Part shown: positions 4,164 through 55,741 of the stretch, one piece after another
Numbering within the stretch: position 1 is the stretch's first letter
Layout of the letters: the number at the start of each line of letters is the position of its first letter
NCBI RefSeq assembly: GCF_004322775.1
Contig: NZ_CP036403.1
Location: 1,178,001 to 1,242,000, forward strand
DNA: 64,000 bases
Source: Ornithinimicrobium sufpigmenti
Lineage (GTDB): Bacteria; Actinomycetota; Actinomycetes; Actinomycetales; Dermatophilaceae
Direction: 5' to 3'
Notes under the pieces: model-generated
What the model saw: the letters and a program-made list of their open reading frames with translations, nothing else
What the model was told of the DNA's origin: nothing
Database searches by the model: none
Made by a program: the position numbers and the translations under genes

Positions 4164-5454
4164 CGTGGTCCTCCTGGTCCTGGTCGGGGGCGTCAGCCGG
4201 GGCGAGCGGGACGAGGTCAGCCCAGTCGTGGCGGGACGTGTAGACCGCGTACCGCAGCGCGTCAGCCTCGTCGTCGTCGGCCTTGAGCGGTGCCGTCTCG
4301 CCCCGCTTGGTGGCCTTCGGGTCCCAGGCGTAGCCGGGGAGCTTGTCGATCAGGTGCGTGCAGGTGTCCGCCACGACGAGCTTGTCGACGGCGAGGAGTC
4401 CGGCGACGGTACGGATGCCGGACAGGACGTTCTTGTGGGCGTTGCGGACGTTGACCATGCCGTCGTGGAACAGCTGCCGCTTGAACGCGGCCGCTGCGGA
4501 GTCGACAGCGACCCACTCGGGTGCCTGCCATGCGGTGGGCTGGTCAGCGAGCCAGCGCCGCAGGTCCGTGGAGTATTCGCCGATCGTGCGTGGGCTGGGT
4601 GCCCACTCGGCCAGGACGTAGAGCCGGTAGCCGCCGTTGACGGGGTCGGGCCCGACGCCGAGGAGGTAGCCGCGGGTGGCGTGCACGTCGCCGTAGTCGA
4701 CGCCGACGGTCAAGATCCGGTCCATGACTGGCAGCTGGTCGCGGGACAGGACGTGGCGGGTCTCGTCCCACGTCTCGTAGATCGCGCCCTCGGCCTGGAC
4801 CCATTCGCCCTTGATAAACCGGCGGTACCAGAGCCCGGTGTACTCGCGCTTGATCTGGGCGACGTAGGCGGGGTCGAGGTGGGGGTTGTCGTCGATGTCG
4901 AAGTGGAAGACACGGTAGCCGAGTTCGTCGGCGCGCAGGATGACCTGCTTGCGCAGGTAGTGCCCGGGGGAGTCGGGGTTGGTGGTGGCGAAGAGCTGGG
5001 CGCCGGGGACGGACATGCGGCCGAGCAGCTGGGTCCAGAACGCCTCGGAGACGAGGGTGGCTTCGTCGACGTAGGCGCCGGCGACGGTGAGGCCGCGTAG
5101 CACCATCTCGGCGCGGGCGTCGGAGGCGCCGAGGACGTGGATGGTGCGGCCGAGGATCTTTGCGGTGGGTGCGCCGGCGGTGTAGGTCACCTGCAGTGCG
5201 AGGGTGCCGAACAGGGACGGGTCGGTGAGGGGCCCGAACACGTTACGGGCGATGGACTCACGGGTGCGGCCGATGACGACGAGTGCGCCACCTGCGGGGG
5301 GTTCGCGGCAGAACAGGAGCCAGGCGAGGAGGGAGCCGATGGTCTTGCCGGAGCGGATGCTGCCCTCCCACAGGCACAGCCGCGCGTCCGCCTGAGCGAT
5401 GGAAGTGATCTGCTTGGGGGAGAGCGCGGCGACGACGGCCTGGGTGAGGCTCAC
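4150..5454 (-). CDS. terL: Phage terminase large subunit
   Basis: This is the DNA-packaging ATPase/nuclease. The ATPase domain has a Walker A variant GSIRSGKT at residues 31-38 and a Walker B AYVDEA with the catalytic acidic pair at 130-131, followed by the coupling-type motif ATTNP near 156-160. The C-terminal RNase H-like nuclease domain has GVDYGD, giving candidate metal ligands D253 and D256, and a late acidic cluster DDDEAD near residue 395. Length (434) is typical of PBSX/XtmB-type terminases. The gene starts with GTG overlapping the stop of the small-subunit gene (GTGA). The last 15 residues are Asp/Gln/His-rich and look dispensable. Confidence 0.95.
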   Translation of the reverse strand: MSLTQAVVAALSPKQITSIAQADARLCLWEGSIRSGKTIGSLLAWLLFCREPPAGGALVVIGRTRESIARNVFGPLTDPSLFGTLALQVTYTAGAPTAKILGRTIHVLGASDARAEMVLRGLTVAGAYVDEATLVSEAFWTQLLGRMSVPGAQLFATTNPDSPGHYLRKQVILRADELGYRVFHFDIDDNPHLDPAYVAQIKREYTGLWYRRFIKGEWVQAEGAIYETWDETRHVLSRDQLPVMDRILTVGVDYGDVHATRGYLLGVGPDPVNGGYRLYVLAEWAPSPRTIGEYSTDLRRWLADQPTAWQAPEWVAVDSAAAAFKRQLFHDGMVNVRNAHKNVLSGIRTVAGLLAVDKLVVADTCTHLIDKLPGYAWDPKATKRGETAPLKADDDEADALRYAVYTSRHDWADLVPLAPADAPDQDQEDHDAAA

Positions 5455-5963
5455 GGGGCGTCCTGCAGGGTCTGCGCGGTGGCTTTGATGGCGTCGGCGA
5501 TCTTGTCGAGCATCCCGACCGCGTCAGACACGCCACCGTCGCCATCGAGCTTCTCCAGGCGGTCGTAGGAGCCGATGGCGGTGGAGACGGCCTGCATGAT
5601 CTTCAGCTGGTCGGCGTGCGGGGGCTGGTCGAGCTCGCGCTGCTCGTAGGTGTTGTCCTTGCCGCCGAAGTTGAAGATGACCGTCGGGGCGAAGAGCTGC
5701 TTGCGCAGGCGGGCGGCGTCTTCGAGGAGGTCGGCCTTGAGCTGGGCGCGGCGGGCTTTGACGTCGAGGACCTTGGCCTGGGTGGCTGCGGCCGTGTGGG
5801 AACGGTCCCAGGTCAGGGGCGGGTCCATGGCTTTGGCTTTGCGGGAGACGGAGCCCTTGTCGCGGCCGAGCTCTTTGGCGATGGCGGTCAGGGTGAGGCC
5901 TTGGCCGTGGAGCTCGCGCAGGCGGGTTTCCTGCTCGGTGGTCCAGCGTCCGGGTGAGGCCAC
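5451..5963 (-). CDS. terS: Phage terminase small subunit
   Basis: This 170-residue protein immediately precedes the large terminase subunit and is coupled to it by a four-base overlap. The N-terminus (about 7-50) is a helix-turn-helix with the pattern GLTLTAIAKELGRDKGSVSR, as in DNA-recognition subunits of terminases. A helical, Lys/Arg/Asp-rich middle follows, which in the family forms the oligomeric ring. A spacer of roughly 210 bases with a hairpin separates this gene from the early genes upstream, so it is probably the first gene of the late transcription unit. Confidence 0.85.
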   Translation of the reverse strand: MASPGRWTTEQETRLRELHGQGLTLTAIAKELGRDKGSVSRKAKAMDPPLTWDRSHTAAATQAKVLDVKARRAQLKADLLEDAARLRKQLFAPTVIFNFGGKDNTYEQRELDQPPHADQLKIMQAVSTAIGSYDRLEKLDGDGGVSDAVGMLDKIADAIKATAQTLQDAP

Positions 5964-46553: not shown

Positions 46554-49451
46554 ATGACCGAGACGACCGGGGCGAAGGCTCGCGCCCGCCGCAGCGGCAA
46601 GGGCCTGAAGATCGAGCGGATCTTCACCACGCCTGGCGTCCACCCGTACGACCAGGTCACCTGGGAGTCGCGGGACATCGTCCAGACCAACTGGAAGAGC
46701 GGCGAGACCATCTTCGAGCAGCGCGGAGTGGAGTTCCCCGACTTCTGGTCGGTGAACGCCTCCACGATCGTGACCACGAAGTACTTCCGCGGTGCCGTCG
46801 GGACCCCGGAGCGGGAGACCGGCCTCAAGCAGCTCATCGACCGCGTGGTGCTCACCTACACCCAGGCGGGCAAGGAGCACGGCTACTTCGCGACCGACGA
46901 AGACGCGGACGTCTTCGAGCACGAGCTCACCTACGCCCTGCTGCACCAGATCTTCAGCTTCAACTCCCCGGTGTGGTTCAACGTCGGCACCGCCAGCCCG
47001 CAGCAGGTCAGCGCCTGCTTCATCCTCTCGGTCGACGACTCGATGGACTCGATCCTCAACTGGTACAAGGAGGAGGGCTTCATCTTCAAGGGCGGCTCCG
47101 GCGCCGGCCTCAACCTCTCCCGCATCCGCTCCTCCAAGGAGCTGCTCTCCTCCGGCGGCACCGCCTCCGGCCCGGTCTCCTTCATGCGCGGCGCCGACGC
47201 CTCCGCGGGCACGATCAAGTCCGGCGGCGCGACCCGCCGCGCGGCCAAGATGGTCGTGCTCGACGTCGACCACCCGGACATCGAGGAGTTCATCGAGACG
47301 AAGGCGCGCGAGGAGGACAAGATCCGCGCGCTGCGTGACGCCGGCTTCGACATGGACCTAGGCGGCAAGGACATCGTGTCCGTGCAGTACCAAAACGCCA
47401 ACAACTCCGTGCGTGTCACCGACGAGTTCATGCGCGCCGTGGAGGAGGGCAAGGAGTTCGGCCTGACCTCCCGCAAGGACGGCTCGGTCATCGAGACCAT
47501 CGACGCCAAGGGCCTCTTCGAGAAGATGGCCCAGGCCGCGTGGGAGAGCGCCGACCCGGGGATCCAGTACGACGGAACCATTAATGATTGGCACACCAAT
47601 CCAGAAACTGGACGTATTACTGCGTCTAATCCTTGCTCAGAATATATGAGCCTAGACAATTCTTCTTGCAATCTTGCGTCCATCAACCTGCTCAAATTCC
47701 TGCGCGAGGACGACACCTTCGACGTCGAGACCTTCGAGAAGGTCACCGAGCTGATCTTCACGGCGATGGACATCTCGATCTGCTTCGCCGACTTCCCGAC
47801 CGAGAAGATTGGTGAGACTACCCGCGACTACCGTCAGCTGGGCATCGGCTACGCCAACCTCGGCGCGCTGCTCATGGCCACCGGCCACGGCTACGACTCC
47901 GACGGCGGCCGAGCGCTCGCCGCCTCGATCACCTCGCTCATGACCGGCGCCGCCTACAAGCGTTCCGCCGAGCTCGCCGCGGTCGTCGGTCCCTACAACG
48001 GGTATGCCCGCAACGCCGACGCGCACAAGCGGGTCATGCGCAAGCACCAGGCCGCCAACGACGAGATCCGCACCCTGCACACCATGGACAGCCAGATCCA
48101 CAAGGCTGCCACCAAGGCGTGGGACGCCGTGGTCAAGACTGGTGAGAAGAACGGCTTCCGCAACGCGCAGGCCTCGCTGCTGGCCCCGACCGGGACTATC
48201 GGCTTCATGATGGACTGCGACACCACCGGCATCGAGCCGGACTTCTCCTTGGTCAAGTTCAAGAAGCTGGTCGGCGGCGGCTCGATGCAGATCGTCAACC
48301 AGACAATCCCGCGCGCGCTGAAGCGGATGGGCTACACCGAGGAGACCATCGAGGCGATCGTCGAGTACATCGCCGAGAACGGCCACGTCATCGACGCCCC
48401 GGGGCTGAAGACCGAGCACTACGAGGTCTTCGACACCGCCATGGGTGCCCGCTCGATCGCGCCCATGGGCCACGTGCGGATGATGGCCGCGGTCCAGCCG
48501 TTCCTGTCCGGTGCCATCTCCAAGACGGTCAACCTGCCGGAGTCGGCGACCGTGGAGGAGGTCGAGGACGTCTACCTGCAGGGCTGGAAGCTCGGCCTGA
48601 AGGCCCTGGCCATCTACAGGGATGGCTGCAAGGTCGGCCAGCCGCTGTCCGACGGCAAGGGCGACAACAACGGCAAGCAGGCCGAGAAGGAGGCCGAGCC
48701 GGTCGTCGAGAAGGTCATCGAGTACCGTCCCGTCCGCAAGCGGCTGCCCAAGCGTCGCGCCTCGCAGACCACCAGCTTCGCCGTGGGTGGCGCCGAGGGC
48801 TACCTCACCGCCGGCACCTACGACGACGGCGACCTGGGCGAGATCTTCCTCAAGTTCGGCAAGCAGGGCTCGACCCTTGCCGGCGTGATGGACGCCTTTT
48901 CGATCGCCGTCTCGATCGGCCTGCAGTACGGCGTGCCGCTGGAGACCTTCGTGGAGAAGTTCACCAACCTGCGCTTCGAGCCGGCCGGCCTGACCGACGA
49001 CCCGGACGTGCGCATGGCGCAGTCGATCATGGACTACGTCTTCCGCCGCCTGGCGCTGGATCACCTGGACTTCGAGTCCCGGTCTTACATGGGTATCCAC
49101 TCCGCCGAGGAGCGCGCCCGCCAGCTGGAGACCGGCTCCTACGCCCCCGTCACGCCGTCCAACGGCTCCGACGAGGACGTGGACGACCAGCTGGAGTCCT
49201 TCAGCCAGAGCGCGGCCATGCGGCGTGAGCCGGAGACCAAGCAGGCGGAGAAGGCAGCGGACCAGTCTGGTGCCGGCGCGGCCGACGCCCGCGCGGTCAG
49301 CCCTGAGGTCCACTCCTCGGCCGAGCTCATGGAGCAGTTCGCCGGCAAGGTCAACGACGCGCCGATCTGCATGACCTGCGGCACGAAGATGCGGCCGGCC
49401 GGCTCGTGCTACGTGTGCGAGGGCTGCGGGAGCACCAGCGGCTGCAGCTGA
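46554..49451 (+). CDS. nrdJ: Vitamin B12-dependent ribonucleotide reductase (class II)
   Basis: A 965-residue NrdJ. It makes deoxyribonucleotides with adenosylcobalamin and needs no oxygen. Seen are FSFNSPVWFNVG, GGSGAGLNLSRIRS, SNPCSEYMSLDNSSCNLASI with the active-site Cys and Glu region, ASLLAPTGTIGFMMDCDTTG, and the C-terminal Cys-rich tail CMTCGTKMRPAG, CYVCEGCG for reduction of the active site. AAGGAG precedes the ATG. The region 47574-47681 has A/T-ending codons unlike the rest of the gene, centred on the NPC|SE position where inteins insert in NrdJ proteins. There is no intein now. Confidence 0.97.
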   Translation: MTETTGAKARARRSGKGLKIERIFTTPGVHPYDQVTWESRDIVQTNWKSGETIFEQRGVEFPDFWSVNASTIVTTKYFRGAVGTPERETGLKQLIDRVVLTYTQAGKEHGYFATDEDADVFEHELTYALLHQIFSFNSPVWFNVGTASPQQVSACFILSVDDSMDSILNWYKEEGFIFKGGSGAGLNLSRIRSSKELLSSGGTASGPVSFMRGADASAGTIKSGGATRRAAKMVVLDVDHPDIEEFIETKAREEDKIRALRDAGFDMDLGGKDIVSVQYQNANNSVRVTDEFMRAVEEGKEFGLTSRKDGSVIETIDAKGLFEKMAQAAWESADPGIQYDGTINDWHTNPETGRITASNPCSEYMSLDNSSCNLASINLLKFLREDDTFDVETFEKVTELIFTAMDISICFADFPTEKIGETTRDYRQLGIGYANLGALLMATGHGYDSDGGRALAASITSLMTGAAYKRSAELAAVVGPYNGYARNADAHKRVMRKHQAANDEIRTLHTMDSQIHKAATKAWDAVVKTGEKNGFRNAQASLLAPTGTIGFMMDCDTTGIEPDFSLVKFKKLVGGGSMQIVNQTIPRALKRMGYTEETIEAIVEYIAENGHVIDAPGLKTEHYEVFDTAMGARSIAPMGHVRMMAAVQPFLSGAISKTVNLPESATVEEVEDVYLQGWKLGLKALAIYRDGCKVGQPLSDGKGDNNGKQAEKEAEPVVEKVIEYRPVRKRLPKRRASQTTSFAVGGAEGYLTAGTYDDGDLGEIFLKFGKQGSTLAGVMDAFSIAVSIGLQYGVPLETFVEKFTNLRFEPAGLTDDPDVRMAQSIMDYVFRRLALDHLDFESRSYMGIHSAEERARQLETGSYAPVTPSNGSDEDVDDQLESFSQSAAMRREPETKQAEKAADQSGAGAADARAVSPEVHSSAELMEQFAGKVNDAPICMTCGTKMRPAGSCYVCEGCGSTSGCS
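47574..47681 (+). other. A/T-ending codon patch at the intein insertion site of nrdJ
   Basis: Within nrdJ, 36 consecutive codons contain 24 that end in A or T (for example AAT, CCA, ACT, CGT, TCT, CTA), counted by hand, whereas flanking codons nearly all end in G or C. The protein is fully conserved in type. The junction Cys361/Ser362 of SNPCSE lies at 47636/47637, 62 bases from the left edge and 45 from the right edge. Confidence 0.9.
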
Positions 49452-49525: not shown

Positions 49526-49592
49526 TGGTCTGCGGGTATGTCAGACCCTTCGTGTCATATGGGAGGAAGACGGCGCCGCGATCGGAGGGGTT

Positions 49593-50765
49593 ATGAGCGG
49601 GTATGCGGTCGATCAGTGGGTGGCGACGCCCGGTGGTGTCAAGCGACTAGAGGAACTCGCCGGACCGCGCGCCGTCAAGCCGGTCGTAGAGCTCCGCCTC
49701 AGTGATGGATCACAAGTTCGCTGCACGCCTGACCATCCCTTTCTGACGAAGGAACGAGGTCTGGTCAAGGCGACGGACCTGGGCCCGAGTGACCGGCTGG
49801 TCCGCTCGATTCAGTACACAGCGCGCAGCGAATGCTCTCACCGGCTACCTGCTCAGGCGCGGGCTATCGCCGCCGATTCACCCCTCCCTCTACCCCTAAC
49901 GTGGGACGAAGACTTGGCTCATTACGTTGGCTGGCTGGTAGGCGACGGTAGCTTCACCCCTCGAGGAGCGGTGACGGTTTATGGCTCGGCGGTCGCGATT
50001 AGTCAGACGATGCCCGCCCACCTACGCTCGCTGCAGAGCTGGACGCTCTTCACGCCCAAGCCGAGCGTGCAAGCGAATAGGACTATGCAACTTCGTTCGA
50101 TGCGTCGCCAGTTCGTTGACTACCTGTGCGCTCTCGGGGTTGTCCAGGAGAAGTCAGCACGGAAGGTTGTTCCTGCGTCAATCTTCACCGCACCCGAGGA
50201 GGCCCTCACCGCGTTCATGCGCGGCCTGTTTGACGCCGACGGGTGCGTGGTCAACGATGTGGGCAAGGGGACCCGCTACGTTGGACTTGGCAGTAAGGCC
50301 GAGGGTCTCGTGGTGGGCGTGCAAACACTGCTCCTGTCGTTAGGAATATCCAGTCGCATCTACCAGACGGCGGGCAAGAAGGACTGCTTCCAACACACTC
50401 GCAAGGACGGACGGCACGTCACCTACTCGTCGCGGGGCCCGTCATACGACCTGAGAATCACTGGCCGATCGCTGCGAGAGTTCGCGGTGCTTATCGACTT
50501 CGGGCTAGAACCGAAACGCCAGAAGTTGCTCGGCGTCATCGATCACCACGGTTATTACGCCACCGACGAGTCTGTGCGATTGCAGGTGGCTCCGCTGCCT
50601 GCTGGTGTAGCACAGGTCGCTCTGACAAGGAGCGGTCAATGGACGCCCCCGCTGGGTTTCCGCGAAGATGATCCAGGTGGGCCAGGTGAGCGTGGCGGCC
50701 ACTGTTCTGTGCCCGACTCTGAGAAGCTACCCAGGTGCAGACGGGAATATACGAGTCACTGGTGA
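49593..50765 (+). CDS. Free-standing LAGLIDADG endonuclease derived from an NrdJ intein
   Basis: A 390-residue protein with a good ribosome site (CGGAGGGG). Residues about 4-70 are an intein N-terminal (Hint) region: DQWVATPGGVKRLEEL, then QVRCTPDHPFLTKERGL, block B, very like RCTPDHPVYTKNRGY of NrdJ-1-type inteins. The block A position that should hold the splicing Cys1 is Gly/Ser, and no Cys precedes it. Two endonuclease motifs follow: HYVGWLVGDGSF near 110 and FMRGLFDADGCV near 209, each with the catalytic Asp. The C-terminal splicing blocks ending His-Asn are not recognisable. So it can no longer splice but may still cut DNA. GC is lower than in the neighbours. Confidence 0.88.
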   Translation: MSGYAVDQWVATPGGVKRLEELAGPRAVKPVVELRLSDGSQVRCTPDHPFLTKERGLVKATDLGPSDRLVRSIQYTARSECSHRLPAQARAIAADSPLPLPLTWDEDLAHYVGWLVGDGSFTPRGAVTVYGSAVAISQTMPAHLRSLQSWTLFTPKPSVQANRTMQLRSMRRQFVDYLCALGVVQEKSARKVVPASIFTAPEEALTAFMRGLFDADGCVVNDVGKGTRYVGLGSKAEGLVVGVQTLLLSLGISSRIYQTAGKKDCFQHTRKDGRHVTYSSRGPSYDLRITGRSLREFAVLIDFGLEPKRQKLLGVIDHHGYYATDESVRLQVAPLPAGVAQVALTRSGQWTPPLGFREDDPGGPGERGGHCSVPDSEKLPRCRREYTSHW

Positions 50766-50815
50766 CGGTCGAACTGATCGAACAGTTGCGGTCACTCGAT
50801 AGGGCGGAATCGCGG

Positions 50816-51889
50816 CTAGTGGCCCGCGTTTGAAGTTGCTTGACGGTTCGCTTTCTTGAGAATCTCGTCGGCGGTCTTGGTCCACACGAACGGGTGGCAC
50901 CGGTCGTTCCAGCCGTCTATGAAGGCGCGGATCTTGGCGTTGAGGTCCTTGACGGAGCCGAAGCTGCCGCGGTGGATGGCCTGGCGCTCGATGATGGAGA
51001 ACCAGACCTCGACCAGGTTGAGCCAGGAGCCAGAGGTTGGGGTGTGGTGGACGTGGATGCGTGGGTTCTTGTCCAGCCAGGTCCGGACCTCGGCCTTCTT
51101 GTGGGTGGCGTAGTTGTCCATCACCAGGTGCAGCTCGCCTTCGGGGTAGGCGCGGGCGACCTGCTTGAGGAACGCGAGGAACTCCTGGTGCCGGTGCCGG
51201 GGCTTGCAGGCGCCGGTGACCTTGCCGGTGGCGATCTCCAGCGCCGCGAACAGCGTGGTCGTCCCGTGCCGCTTGTAGTCGTGGGTGCGCCGCTGGGGCA
51301 GGCCGGGTTGCATCGGCAACATGGGCGCGGTCCGGTCCAGCGCCTGGATCTGGGACTTCTCGTCCACGCAGAGCACGATCGCGTTCTCCGGCGGTTCCAG
51401 GTAGAGACCGACCACGTCGGTGACCTTGGCCACCAGCTCGGGGTCGGTGGAGAACTTGAACGTCTCGACCCGCCACGGTTGCACCCCGTACTCGCGCCAG
51501 GCCCGCGCCACGGTCGCGTCCCCGATCCCCAGGTGCTTGGCCAGCAACCGGGTCGACCAGTGCGTCACCCCCAACTTCTTGGGCGGCGGCGTCAGCGTGG
51601 CCGCGACCACGTCACGGTGATCCACCTGCCGGGGCCGGCCCGACCGTGGTTCGTCGAGCAGCCCGTCCAGTCCCTTGTCCTGGTACCGGGCCCGCCACTT
51701 GATCACCGTCGTCCTGCTCGTGCCCAACCGGTCCGCGATCGCCTCGTTCGCCTCACCGGCCGACGCGGCCAGCACGATCCGGGCACGCAACACCAGCCCG
51801 GCACGCGTCGCCGTCGACCGGGTCCACCGCACCAATTGATCTCGGTCGTCCTCGCGCAGCATCAGGGCCGGGGCAGGTCGATTCGCCAT
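50816..51889 (-). CDS. IS630-family transposase
   Basis: A 357-residue DDE transposase. The N-terminal half is helix-turn-helix (ANEAIADRLGTSRTTVIKWR and GDATVARAWREYGVQP). The catalytic domain has CVDEKSQIQALDR (first Asp), MDNYATHKKAEV (second Asp) and SGSWLNLVEVWFSIIERQA with the final Glu. All three acidic residues are present, so it may be active. The stop codon lies inside the left terminal repeat. Start ATG at 51889. Confidence 0.93.
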   Translation of the reverse strand: MANRPAPALMLREDDRDQLVRWTRSTATRAGLVLRARIVLAASAGEANEAIADRLGTSRTTVIKWRARYQDKGLDGLLDEPRSGRPRQVDHRDVVAATLTPPPKKLGVTHWSTRLLAKHLGIGDATVARAWREYGVQPWRVETFKFSTDPELVAKVTDVVGLYLEPPENAIVLCVDEKSQIQALDRTAPMLPMQPGLPQRRTHDYKRHGTTTLFAALEIATGKVTGACKPRHRHQEFLAFLKQVARAYPEGELHLVMDNYATHKKAEVRTWLDKNPRIHVHHTPTSGSWLNLVEVWFSIIERQAIHRGSFGSVKDLNAKIRAFIDGWNDRCHPFVWTKTADEILKKANRQATSNAGH

Positions 51890-51952: not shown

Positions 51953-52631
51953 GTGGCCTACATCCGGACGGTGAAGACTGCCTCGGGCAAGACGGCTGTC
52001 CAGATCGTGTGGTCCTCGACGGGGGGCTCCAGGCAGATCGAGCACCTGGGCTCGGCGGGCAGTGAGGCAGAGGTAGAGCTGCTCAAGGCTGCGGGCCGGC
52101 AGAAGCTGCTCGCGGGGCAGGGCGAGCTGGATCTGGGGATCCATACGCCGCCGGAGGCCGGTGGCCCGCTGCACATCACGTCCTCGCAGATGGGCCATTT
52201 GTGGGACTCGCTGTCAGCGGCCTACGACACCCTTGGCTTCGACACTGCGGTGGGCGATGAGTGTTCCGTCAGCTCGTGCTGGCACGGATCATCGAGCCCA
52301 CCTCCAAGGCCGATGCGCCGCGGGTGATCGCCGAGGCCGGCATCGTCCCCGCGTCGGACCGCACGATCACCCGCCGGTTGCGGCTCTACTCCGCGATCGG
52401 GTTCCGTGAGCAGCTGGCCGCCGCGTGCGCGGCGCAGGTCAACCTGGGCCCAGCGACGCTCGTCTTATATGACGTCACCACGCTGTATTTCGAGACCGAC
52501 GAGGGCGACGGGTTCCGCGAGCCAGGGTTCAGCAAGGAACGGCGCCTGGACCCTCAGATCACCGTCGGGCTGCTCTCCGACGCGAACGGGTTCCCGCTGA
52601 TGGTGCACGCCTTCGAGGGCAACAAGGCAGA
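51953..52631 (+). pseudogene. IS1634-type transposase, 5' exon, frameshifted
   Basis: The N-terminal part of an IS1634-like (IS4 superfamily) transposase. It starts at a GTG (51953; AYIRTVKTASGKTAVQIV), proceeds to SAAYDTLGFDTAVGDE, then the frame breaks at about 52260. The continuation in the next frame is VFRQLVLARIIEPTSK, SDRTITRRLRLYS, ATLVLYDVTTLYFETDEGD. One lost G in GATGAGGTG would explain the shift. The exon ends in GNKA plus two bases of a Glu codon at 52631, where the group II intron begins. Confidence 0.85.
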
Positions 52632-54915
<2,284 letters not shown>

Positions 54916-55741
54916 GACGAAGACGATGCTGCCCACGCTGCGCTCCTTCATGGACACCCACGGTCTGCCCGACGTGGTGATCGTGGCCGATGCCGGGATG
55001 GTCTCCGAGGCCAACATGGACGCGATCGAAGCGGCCGGGCTGTCCTACATCCTGGGCGGCAAGATGCCCCGCGTTCCCTATGTCATCGACCAGTGGCACA
55101 AGGACTACCCCGACACCGACGTCCCGGACGGGCTCACCCTGGTCGCCCGCTGGCCCGGCGGCCCCTCGACCAAGGGGCGGGACGTGACGACGTTCTACCA
55201 GTACGCCCACGACCGGGGTCGGCGCACGATCAAGGGCATCGAAGCCCAGGTCGCCAAGGCCGAGGCGGCCGTCGCGGGCAAGGCGTCGGGGAAGCCCAAC
55301 CGGTTCGTCCAGCTGAGCGGGGGTACCCGCTCGGTGAACCGGGAACTGGAGGAGAAGGCCAAGGCCCTGGCGGGTTGGAAGGCCTACGTCACCAACCTGC
55401 CCGACCCGGACGCACAGATGGTGATCGGTGCCTACCGACGCCTGTTCCAGATCGAGCGCTCCTTCCGGATGGCCAAGTCCGACCTGCGCGCCCGCCCGAT
55501 CTACCACCGTAAGCAGGACTCTATCGAGGCCCACCTGAGCATCGTCTTTGCTGCCATGGCCGTCGCGCACTGGATCGGGCAGACCACCGGCTGGTCCATC
55601 AAGCGCTTCGTCAAGACCGCCCGCAGGTACCGCACCTTCACCATCGCCGCCGGCGAGCACACCATCACCGCAGTCGACCCCGTCCCCGACGACCTCGCCC
55701 AAGCCCTCGACGCCATAAAGGCACGGTCAAGTACGCACTAA
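54916..55741 (+). pseudogene. IS1634-type transposase, 3' exon
   Basis: The C-terminal part of the transposase resumes as TKTMLPTLRSFMDTHGLPD and continues through VVIVADAGMVSEANMDAIEA (second catalytic Asp), GLSYILGGKMPRVPYVID and the conserved IERSFRMAKSDLRARPIYHR with the last catalytic Glu and the Y(2)-R-K-type motif. It ends IKARSSTH at a TAA. On its own this exon is in frame and unmutated. Functional protein would need intron splicing and correction of the upstream frameshift. The element's terminal repeats could not be settled. Confidence 0.88.

Follow-up and report, generated by a model that had tools for sequence, protein, structure and literature searches.

A patch of A/T-ending codons at an empty intein site of nrdJ, beside a free-standing relative of the intein, in Ornithinimicrobium sufpigmenti

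Why should a GC-rich gene carry one short, sharply bounded run of A/T-ending codons that leaves its protein conserved? The question is raised by nrdJ, the gene for the B12-dependent ribonucleotide reductase, in a stretch of 64,000 nucleotides from Ornithinimicrobium sufpigmenti (contig NZ_CP036403.1, positions 1,178,001 to 1,242,000), here called the window, in which nrdJ is followed by an orphan open reading frame (ORF) related to inteins. From sequence comparison, we suggest with a probability of about 0.52 that the run of codons is a homing footprint at an endonuclease's target, which would now serve as self-immunity against an escaped, splicing-dead intein. The features of nrdJ on which this reading depends are as follows.

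46554..49451, plus strand: nrdJ, B12-dependent (class II) ribonucleotide reductase, intein-free, 965 amino acids (aa), G+C fraction at third codon positions (GC3) 0.934; NCBIfam NF005122 at 1624.6 bits, Pfam PF02867
47574..47675, plus strand: the patch of A/T-ending codons, nrdJ codons 341-374
47604..47645, plus strand: the core of the patch, codons 351-364, also recoded in one congener
47633..47634, plus strand: the unoccupied site at which the NrdJ intein inserts, with codon 360 to its left and codon 361 to its right

An earlier note on this DNA had drawn attention to an A/T-ending patch in a conserved protein on a GC-rich background, and the description holds: 24 of the 36 codons at 47574-47681 have A or T in the third position, GC3 drops to ~0.3 with sharp edges across codons 341-374, and the protein remains conserved despite the recoding. 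A scan of GC3 along nrdJ, which that note had proposed, dips at the patch. When 16-codon segments were compared with each gene's own background, the dip in the window (14 of 16 codons, Bonferroni-adjusted p = 4e-12) had the lowest adjusted p among 190 GC-rich nrdJ genes. Third-position identity to nine relatives is 0.24-0.41 in the patch and 0.67-0.95 in the other bins (the last bin, of three codons, excluded). The region is single-copy in its own genome, the other match there being only 37 bases at 84%. Our genus sample comprised 31 genomes, with the genus name taken from O. tianjinense, the species to which the contig of genome G016 belongs; G004 and G023 yielded no readable segment. Of 28 other genomes readable at the segment, 27 lack the patch and encode nearly the same protein with GC-rich codons. 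The sole other patched congener, G027, has a shorter version spanning codons 351-364. Both patches are centered near codon 357, and they share seven identical recoded codons and differ at several others. Five codons (GGA, GCA, TCT, CCA, and AGT) are common to G027, Yinghuangia seranimata, and a further patched genome, G083, at the same sites, a suggestive match that was picked after looking. Separately, small runs of A/T-ending codons (of the type ATT CAA TAT) occur at codons 337-339 in three other loci (L022, L024, and L026), ~22 codons before the insertion point.

The patch surrounds the position at which an actinobacterial intein inserts into NrdJ. Of 46 relatives of the orphan recovered from genome contigs, 42 are nrdJ inteins lying between NP and CSEY in an open frame (NPC, intein, SEY), and two (L109 and L117) show one side of this junction only. 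The remaining two come from O. tianjinense, with a broken orphan downstream of nrdJ, and from Y. seranimata, with an orphan downstream of an uninterrupted nrdJ. Because 42 of the 46 are inteins there, the orphan belongs to the intein family of the patch position. Fifty extracted inteins read NP-CFPADQRVVTD...NLTEPRNHSYIVxGVVVAN-CSEY, with variation. Since resident inteins begin with Cys and end in VVVAN ahead of the CSEY extein, the insertion point is NP/C (47633/47634; the slash marks the point). The earlier note was therefore right that the patch sits at a NrdJ intein site and one codon off in placing it at NPC/SE, the true point being one codon to the left. The +1 residue, Cys361, we take to be the radical cysteine of the reductase. 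In the window, nrdJ is uninterrupted and the orphan is a separate ORF, with no active intein inserted in frame at NP/C.

The orphan itself, which the earlier note had linked to the patch, is indeed akin to the NP/C intein, and its parts can be listed in the same way.

49593..50765, plus strand: the orphan, a free-standing and apparently splicing-dead relative of the NP/C NrdJ intein, 390 aa, starting 141 bp past the nrdJ stop
49584..49589, plus strand: GGAGGG, like a ribosome-binding site, ahead of the orphan's ATG (read by eye)
49599..49601, plus strand: a Gly codon in place of the intein's catalytic Cys1 (MS-G-YAVDQWVATPGG versus C-FPADQRVVTDRG; register of the first residues set by eye)
49917..49949, plus strand: first LAGLIDADG motif, AHYVGWLVGDG, intact in its invariant columns
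50214..50246, plus strand: second LAGLIDADG motif, FMRGLFDADGC, intact in its invariant columns (Pfam LAGLIDADG_3, 2.2e-18)

The start of the orphan ORF coincides with the N terminus of the intein, and Gly occupies the Cys1 position in all four orphans (the window, G027, G016, and Yinghuangia). The C-terminal motif NHSYIVxGxVVAN, which precedes Cys+1 in inteins, is absent in the window and degenerate in Yinghuangia, and intein models match the orphan only below their cut-offs. Judged by these residues, the orphan has lost its splicing elements (Cys1 and the C-terminal motif) and kept its LAGLIDADG domain intact. An AlphaFold model built from a 27-sequence alignment has a mean predicted local distance difference test score (pLDDT) of 81, with residues 335-390 under 50, and the predicted fold resembles the intein endonucleases TliVMA, PI-PfuI, and PI-SceI at template modeling scores of ~0.4-0.5. 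Two LAGLIDADG motifs, an intact ORF, and this predicted fold mark the product as a LAGLIDADG homing endonuclease. Free-standing copies were found in four genomes, with the ORF intact in the window and Yinghuangia and broken in G016 and G027. For the endonuclease piece, the ratio of nonsynonymous to synonymous divergence (dN/dS) is ~0.17 (G000/G016), 0.17 (G000/G027), and 0.29 (G016/G027); dS approaches saturation in both comparisons that involve G000. GC3 of the window copy is 0.68, versus 0.89 in pieces of the two other Ornithinimicrobium copies. In Yinghuangia, a 367-aa ORF without a Pfam match lies between nrdJ and the free-standing gene (4667-5770 of locus L090).

In a tree of the endonuclease domain, the three Ornithinimicrobium orphans form a clade (support 100/99) inside the actinobacterial NrdJ inteins (97/88). 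The Yinghuangia orphan falls outside that fork; a single orphan clade is not rejected (approximately unbiased test, p = 0.33), and all four orphans may have a single origin. Between species, dS of the orphan is 1.69, 1.57, and 0.95, compared to 0.28-0.31 for nrdJ and 0.41-0.47 for nrdR, and all three Ornithinimicrobium orphans start 116-141 bp past the nrdJ stop. High dS combined with a constant position suggests that orphans arrived horizontally more than once at one place, as homing beside a target predicts. The orphan adjoins nrdJ in 3 of the 31 genus genomes, while 11 others have only weaker matches elsewhere, in frames of 891-1309 aa; in G013, nrdJ is followed by a helicase gene with no homing endonuclease gene (HEG) between them. 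A gene that stands beside a conserved target and is absent from relatives has the distribution of a free-standing HEG. Among 394 genomes of the class, with at most four candidates scored per genome, 10 matches at E<=1e-25 were obtained, namely, the window and nine in open frames of 779-2258 aa. In the family of Yinghuangia (297 genomes), the one match was Yinghuangia itself. Plasmid and phage matches were distant only, and of 33 orphan relatives in viral contigs, the one close relative (L118) is an intein at the same nrdJ site.

Patch and orphan tend to occur together. Within the genus, the patch is present in two of the three orphan-bearing genomes versus none of 26 other genomes read (p = 0.007). 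Yinghuangia has both an orphan and a patch (A/T fraction at third positions, AT3, of 0.48 at the site), its congener G728 has neither (AT3 of 0.09), and eight further genomes of its family have AT3 of 0-0.04. Overall, three of four orphan genomes are patched versus 2 of the 144 further GC-rich genes whose NP/C site is empty (p = 7e-5), and both intact HEGs are accompanied by a patch; the window was the starting point of these counts and is not an independent case.

We asked whether such patches mark intein sites across nrdJ genes in general. The 190 genes scanned came from 223 distinct ones, of which 222 had enough codons and 32 were dropped as not GC-rich. Some loci were chosen by similarity to the patch (L034-L042) or to the orphan (L072-L118 and L151-L159). 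In the draw of 394 class genomes, nrdJ was found in 316; since only the best matches were listed, genes split by an intein are too rare in this source. The list included 120 places that lacked a locus: 100 of them were retrieved, 19 of one family (f44, probably low-GC) were skipped, and one (G126) was left out. With species treated as independent, 10 of 11 significant interior dips fall within 16 codons of an intein site, compared to 15% expected (p = 6.6e-8): five at 361, four at 548, one at 154, and none at 658, and all ten sites are empty. Without the loci picked for patch similarity, the count is 8 of 9 (p = 2.3e-6), and with the window removed as well, it is 7 of 8 (p = 1.3e-5). The five patches at 361 come from five different genomes, which represent four families, and all have their centers at codons 355-358. 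Nine of the ten patched genes either contain an insertion at a different intein site or are accompanied by an orphan, and in the tenth, G083, a 1.3-kb insertion at 658 was seen in a longer locus. Among the 143 genes whose selection did not depend on similarity to an intein or patch, a sample that under-represents intein-bearing genes and counts the window as one of its patched cases, patches occur in three of four with an intein or orphan and in none of 139 others. Outside site 361, sharp patches at empty sites in genes with inteins elsewhere were seen near codon 548 in L070 (genome G036), L078, L105, and L154 and near codons 154-163 in L084.

Rare codons of the same kind also stand beside resident inteins. 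We tested 13 positions, uncorrected, with each gene's own codon usage as the expectation and phylogeny ignored. On that basis, intein-bearing genes have AAT at 359 in 13 of 41 cases (1.9 expected, p = 2e-8) and, where residue 360 is Pro, CCA or CCT in 12 of 36 (2.4 expected, p = 2e-6); the excess is weaker at 357, 358, 361, and 362 (p = 0.003 to 0.04, uncorrected). The 146 unpatched empty genes have no such excess at 359 and 360 (3/144 and 3/144). GAA at 363 is in excess in both groups and hence uninformative; it is the only excess in the unpatched empty genes. In the flanks of resident inteins, recoding is enriched at 357-360 and weakly at 362, with no enrichment at 353, 354, and 356. It seems that intein and recoded core move together, which speaks for co-conversion, though patches extend beyond the core.

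How might these pieces fit together? An intein family fills the NP/C site of nrdJ in many actinobacteria, and in Ornithinimicrobium an endonuclease of that family would have left nrdJ to become a separate ORF just downstream. Most likely, the orphan spreads by intronless homing, in which nrdJ alleles would be cut at NP/C and repair would copy the recoded target, sometimes together with the HEG 1.9 kb further on. Silent recoding would shield the orphan's own chromosome from its cutting, a shield that would be needed because the target is no longer interrupted by an intein. The core of the recoding was probably brought in by the intein lineage, a view based on a correlation, namely, the similar rare codons on either side of resident inteins. 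The earlier note had offered recoding that destroys the endonuclease target as its second choice; we find that it fits at least as well as the first, because the endonuclease persists as an intact free-standing gene.

Several observations weigh against this account. G016 has a broken HEG and no patch, and in two patched genomes from the draw of 394 (G083 and G265), a search at E<=1e-25 found no orphan. At sites 154 and 548, patches are present but free-standing copies of the corresponding types are absent from the loci read, of which one spans only 3.9 kb. Since these genes are patched without one, a patch does not require a free-standing HEG. The patch in the window (102 bp) exceeds the length that an endonuclease needs destroyed, and codons 353, 354, and 356, which are recoded in all or four of five patched genes, show no enrichment next to inteins in place. 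In comparisons with 14 relatives, nrdJ similarity does not break at the patch, the best likelihood split of codon identity lying elsewhere: at codons 834-865 in 10 of the 14, as in most control pairs. For the closest congener, identity is 0.859 upstream versus 0.780 downstream (p = 0.003), with the best split at 865. Finally, the full-length tree lacks the nesting of orphans within inteins, with the four orphans beside an arbitrary midpoint root and a very long Yinghuangia branch; because that tree is uninformative, the nesting comes from the endonuclease-domain tree alone.

A serious, though less likely, alternative is that an intein homed into nrdJ with an AT-rich co-conversion tract and was later precisely lost, with the orphan as a by-product. 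It is supported by the rare codons beside resident inteins and by the occurrence of patches in genes with other inteins or an orphan. Moreover, local AT3 at filled 361 sites is 0.146 versus 0.078 over the remainder of nrdJ (n = 40, p = 3e-4), and AT3 of at least 0.3 occurs in 7 of 60 filled versus 15 of 683 empty site-gene pairs. However, the strongest patches (AT3 of at least 0.45) are at empty sites, 7 of 683 versus 0 of 60 filled. These numbers are small. A mark made on entry alone should be freshest while the intein is present, and a cleavage-resistant target that is retained or renewed fits better. Traceless loss is also hard, because splicing acts on the protein: either a deletion must be exact, which is rare, or the gene must recombine with an allele free of the intein, the route to precise loss given in the excerpt of PMC1654191, and such a partner would tend to erase the tract. 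The general idea of homing in the earlier note is supported in kind; its first choice, co-conversion from an AT-rich donor, has the enriched codons beside inteins in its favor and lacks the donor, for which a search with the patch had been suggested there. For the 111-base patch, phages gave 7 records, none covering 80%, and plasmids gave 3, the best at 69.5% over 95%. Of 296 class genomes, 111 match, including the window, with the best others at 79-80%, and in 296 phylum genomes, the window alone matched at E<=1e-18. Phage proteins gave 112 records, all below 60%, and viral contigs gave 56 loci at 68% at most.

Less likely still is that an AT-richer homologue without the intein served as the template to repair an allele that had been cut or carried the intein, with the patch kept because it was uncut and with no lasting role in self-immunity. 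This would suit the sharpest patches, which are at empty sites, including 154 and 548, where no free-standing HEG was seen. By eye, several C/G-to-A/T transversions and one TCG-to-AGC serine change resemble import more than stepwise mutation, but TCN/AGY serine switches are present elsewhere in nrdJ too, and an AT-rich, intein-free donor was not found in the phages, plasmids, viral contigs, and sampled genomes. A chance short import or local codon bias unconnected to inteins would account for a significant interior dip at codon 687 of L023, away from intein sites, and for further dips near codons 10, 911, and 956 when gene ends are kept, but it is strongly disfavored, and in our view very improbable, given the concentration of the other interior dips at intein sites and the shared centers at codons 355-358.

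Described cases of intronless homing are phage enzymes, mostly of other endonuclease families. In Seg and Mob of phage T4, as excerpted in PMC2988022 and PMC6083498, the HEG is likewise a separate, optional gene between conserved genes and the cut site lies hundreds or thousands of bases away; here, by contrast, we find a LAGLIDADG intein relative on a bacterial chromosome, beside the host gene of its intein family and with a recoded target. In cyanophage S-PM2, the free-standing endonuclease F-CphI adjoins psbA, which has the site of a self-splicing intron (excerpt of PMC6083498), and the intron shields its own phage from F-CphI (excerpts of PMC6083498 and PMC2988022). There the intron interrupts and protects the target, whereas in the window the target is uninterrupted and silent recoding would have to protect it. 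Yeast HO is similarly an intein-related endonuclease outside a host protein, homologous to the vacuolar ATPase intein (excerpt of PMC1654191), but HO triggers mating-type switching, and there is no hint of a host role here. In haloarchaeal MCM inteins, flanks are co-converted at homing and point mutations in the target give escape; those inteins are in place, however, and the excerpt of PMC10643990 describes no free-standing descendant or long silent patch. Traces of inteins in phage reductase genes appear in the excerpt of PMC3653736 without a recoded empty site. Among the open-licence papers listed by our literature searches, titles and abstract openings contained nothing on A/T-codon patches at empty intein sites or on a free-standing NrdJ intein in actinobacteria.

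If the patch is indeed a footprint that now protects against the orphan, the case would document the passage of an intein to a free-standing gene in bacterial chromosomes, and it would offer a natural enzyme with a matched pair of targets, possibly cut and uncut, that have silent differences only. Codon usage alone points to empty intein sites in intein-exposed lineages here, and A/T-codon patches provide a genome-scale route to past homing, a cycle with few visible end states. On the general proposition we are evenly balanced, namely, that an intein can exit its host gene, lose splicing, and persist as an adjacent endonuclease protected only by silent recoding, with A/T-codon patches in GC-rich genes as fossils marking empty intein sites.

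Beyond the orphan, the window carries what appears by eye to be an N-terminal helicase remnant (50735-50815), like the DUF3427/ResIII gene directly after nrdJ in G013 (L065). An IS630-like gene with a DDE_3 domain (50816-51889) cuts off this remnant. It is followed by an apparently interrupted transposase gene (51953-55741): 54926-55738 matches DDE_Tnp_1, no Pfam family matches 51953-52324, and an ORF for a group II intron reverse transcriptase (53274-54830) lies in between. The region after nrdJ is variable among congeners, with an HNH gene and a C5-cytosine methylase in G016 (L062), a C5-cytosine methylase in G025 (L064), and the helicase in G013, and it looks like a hotspot for defense-type genes.

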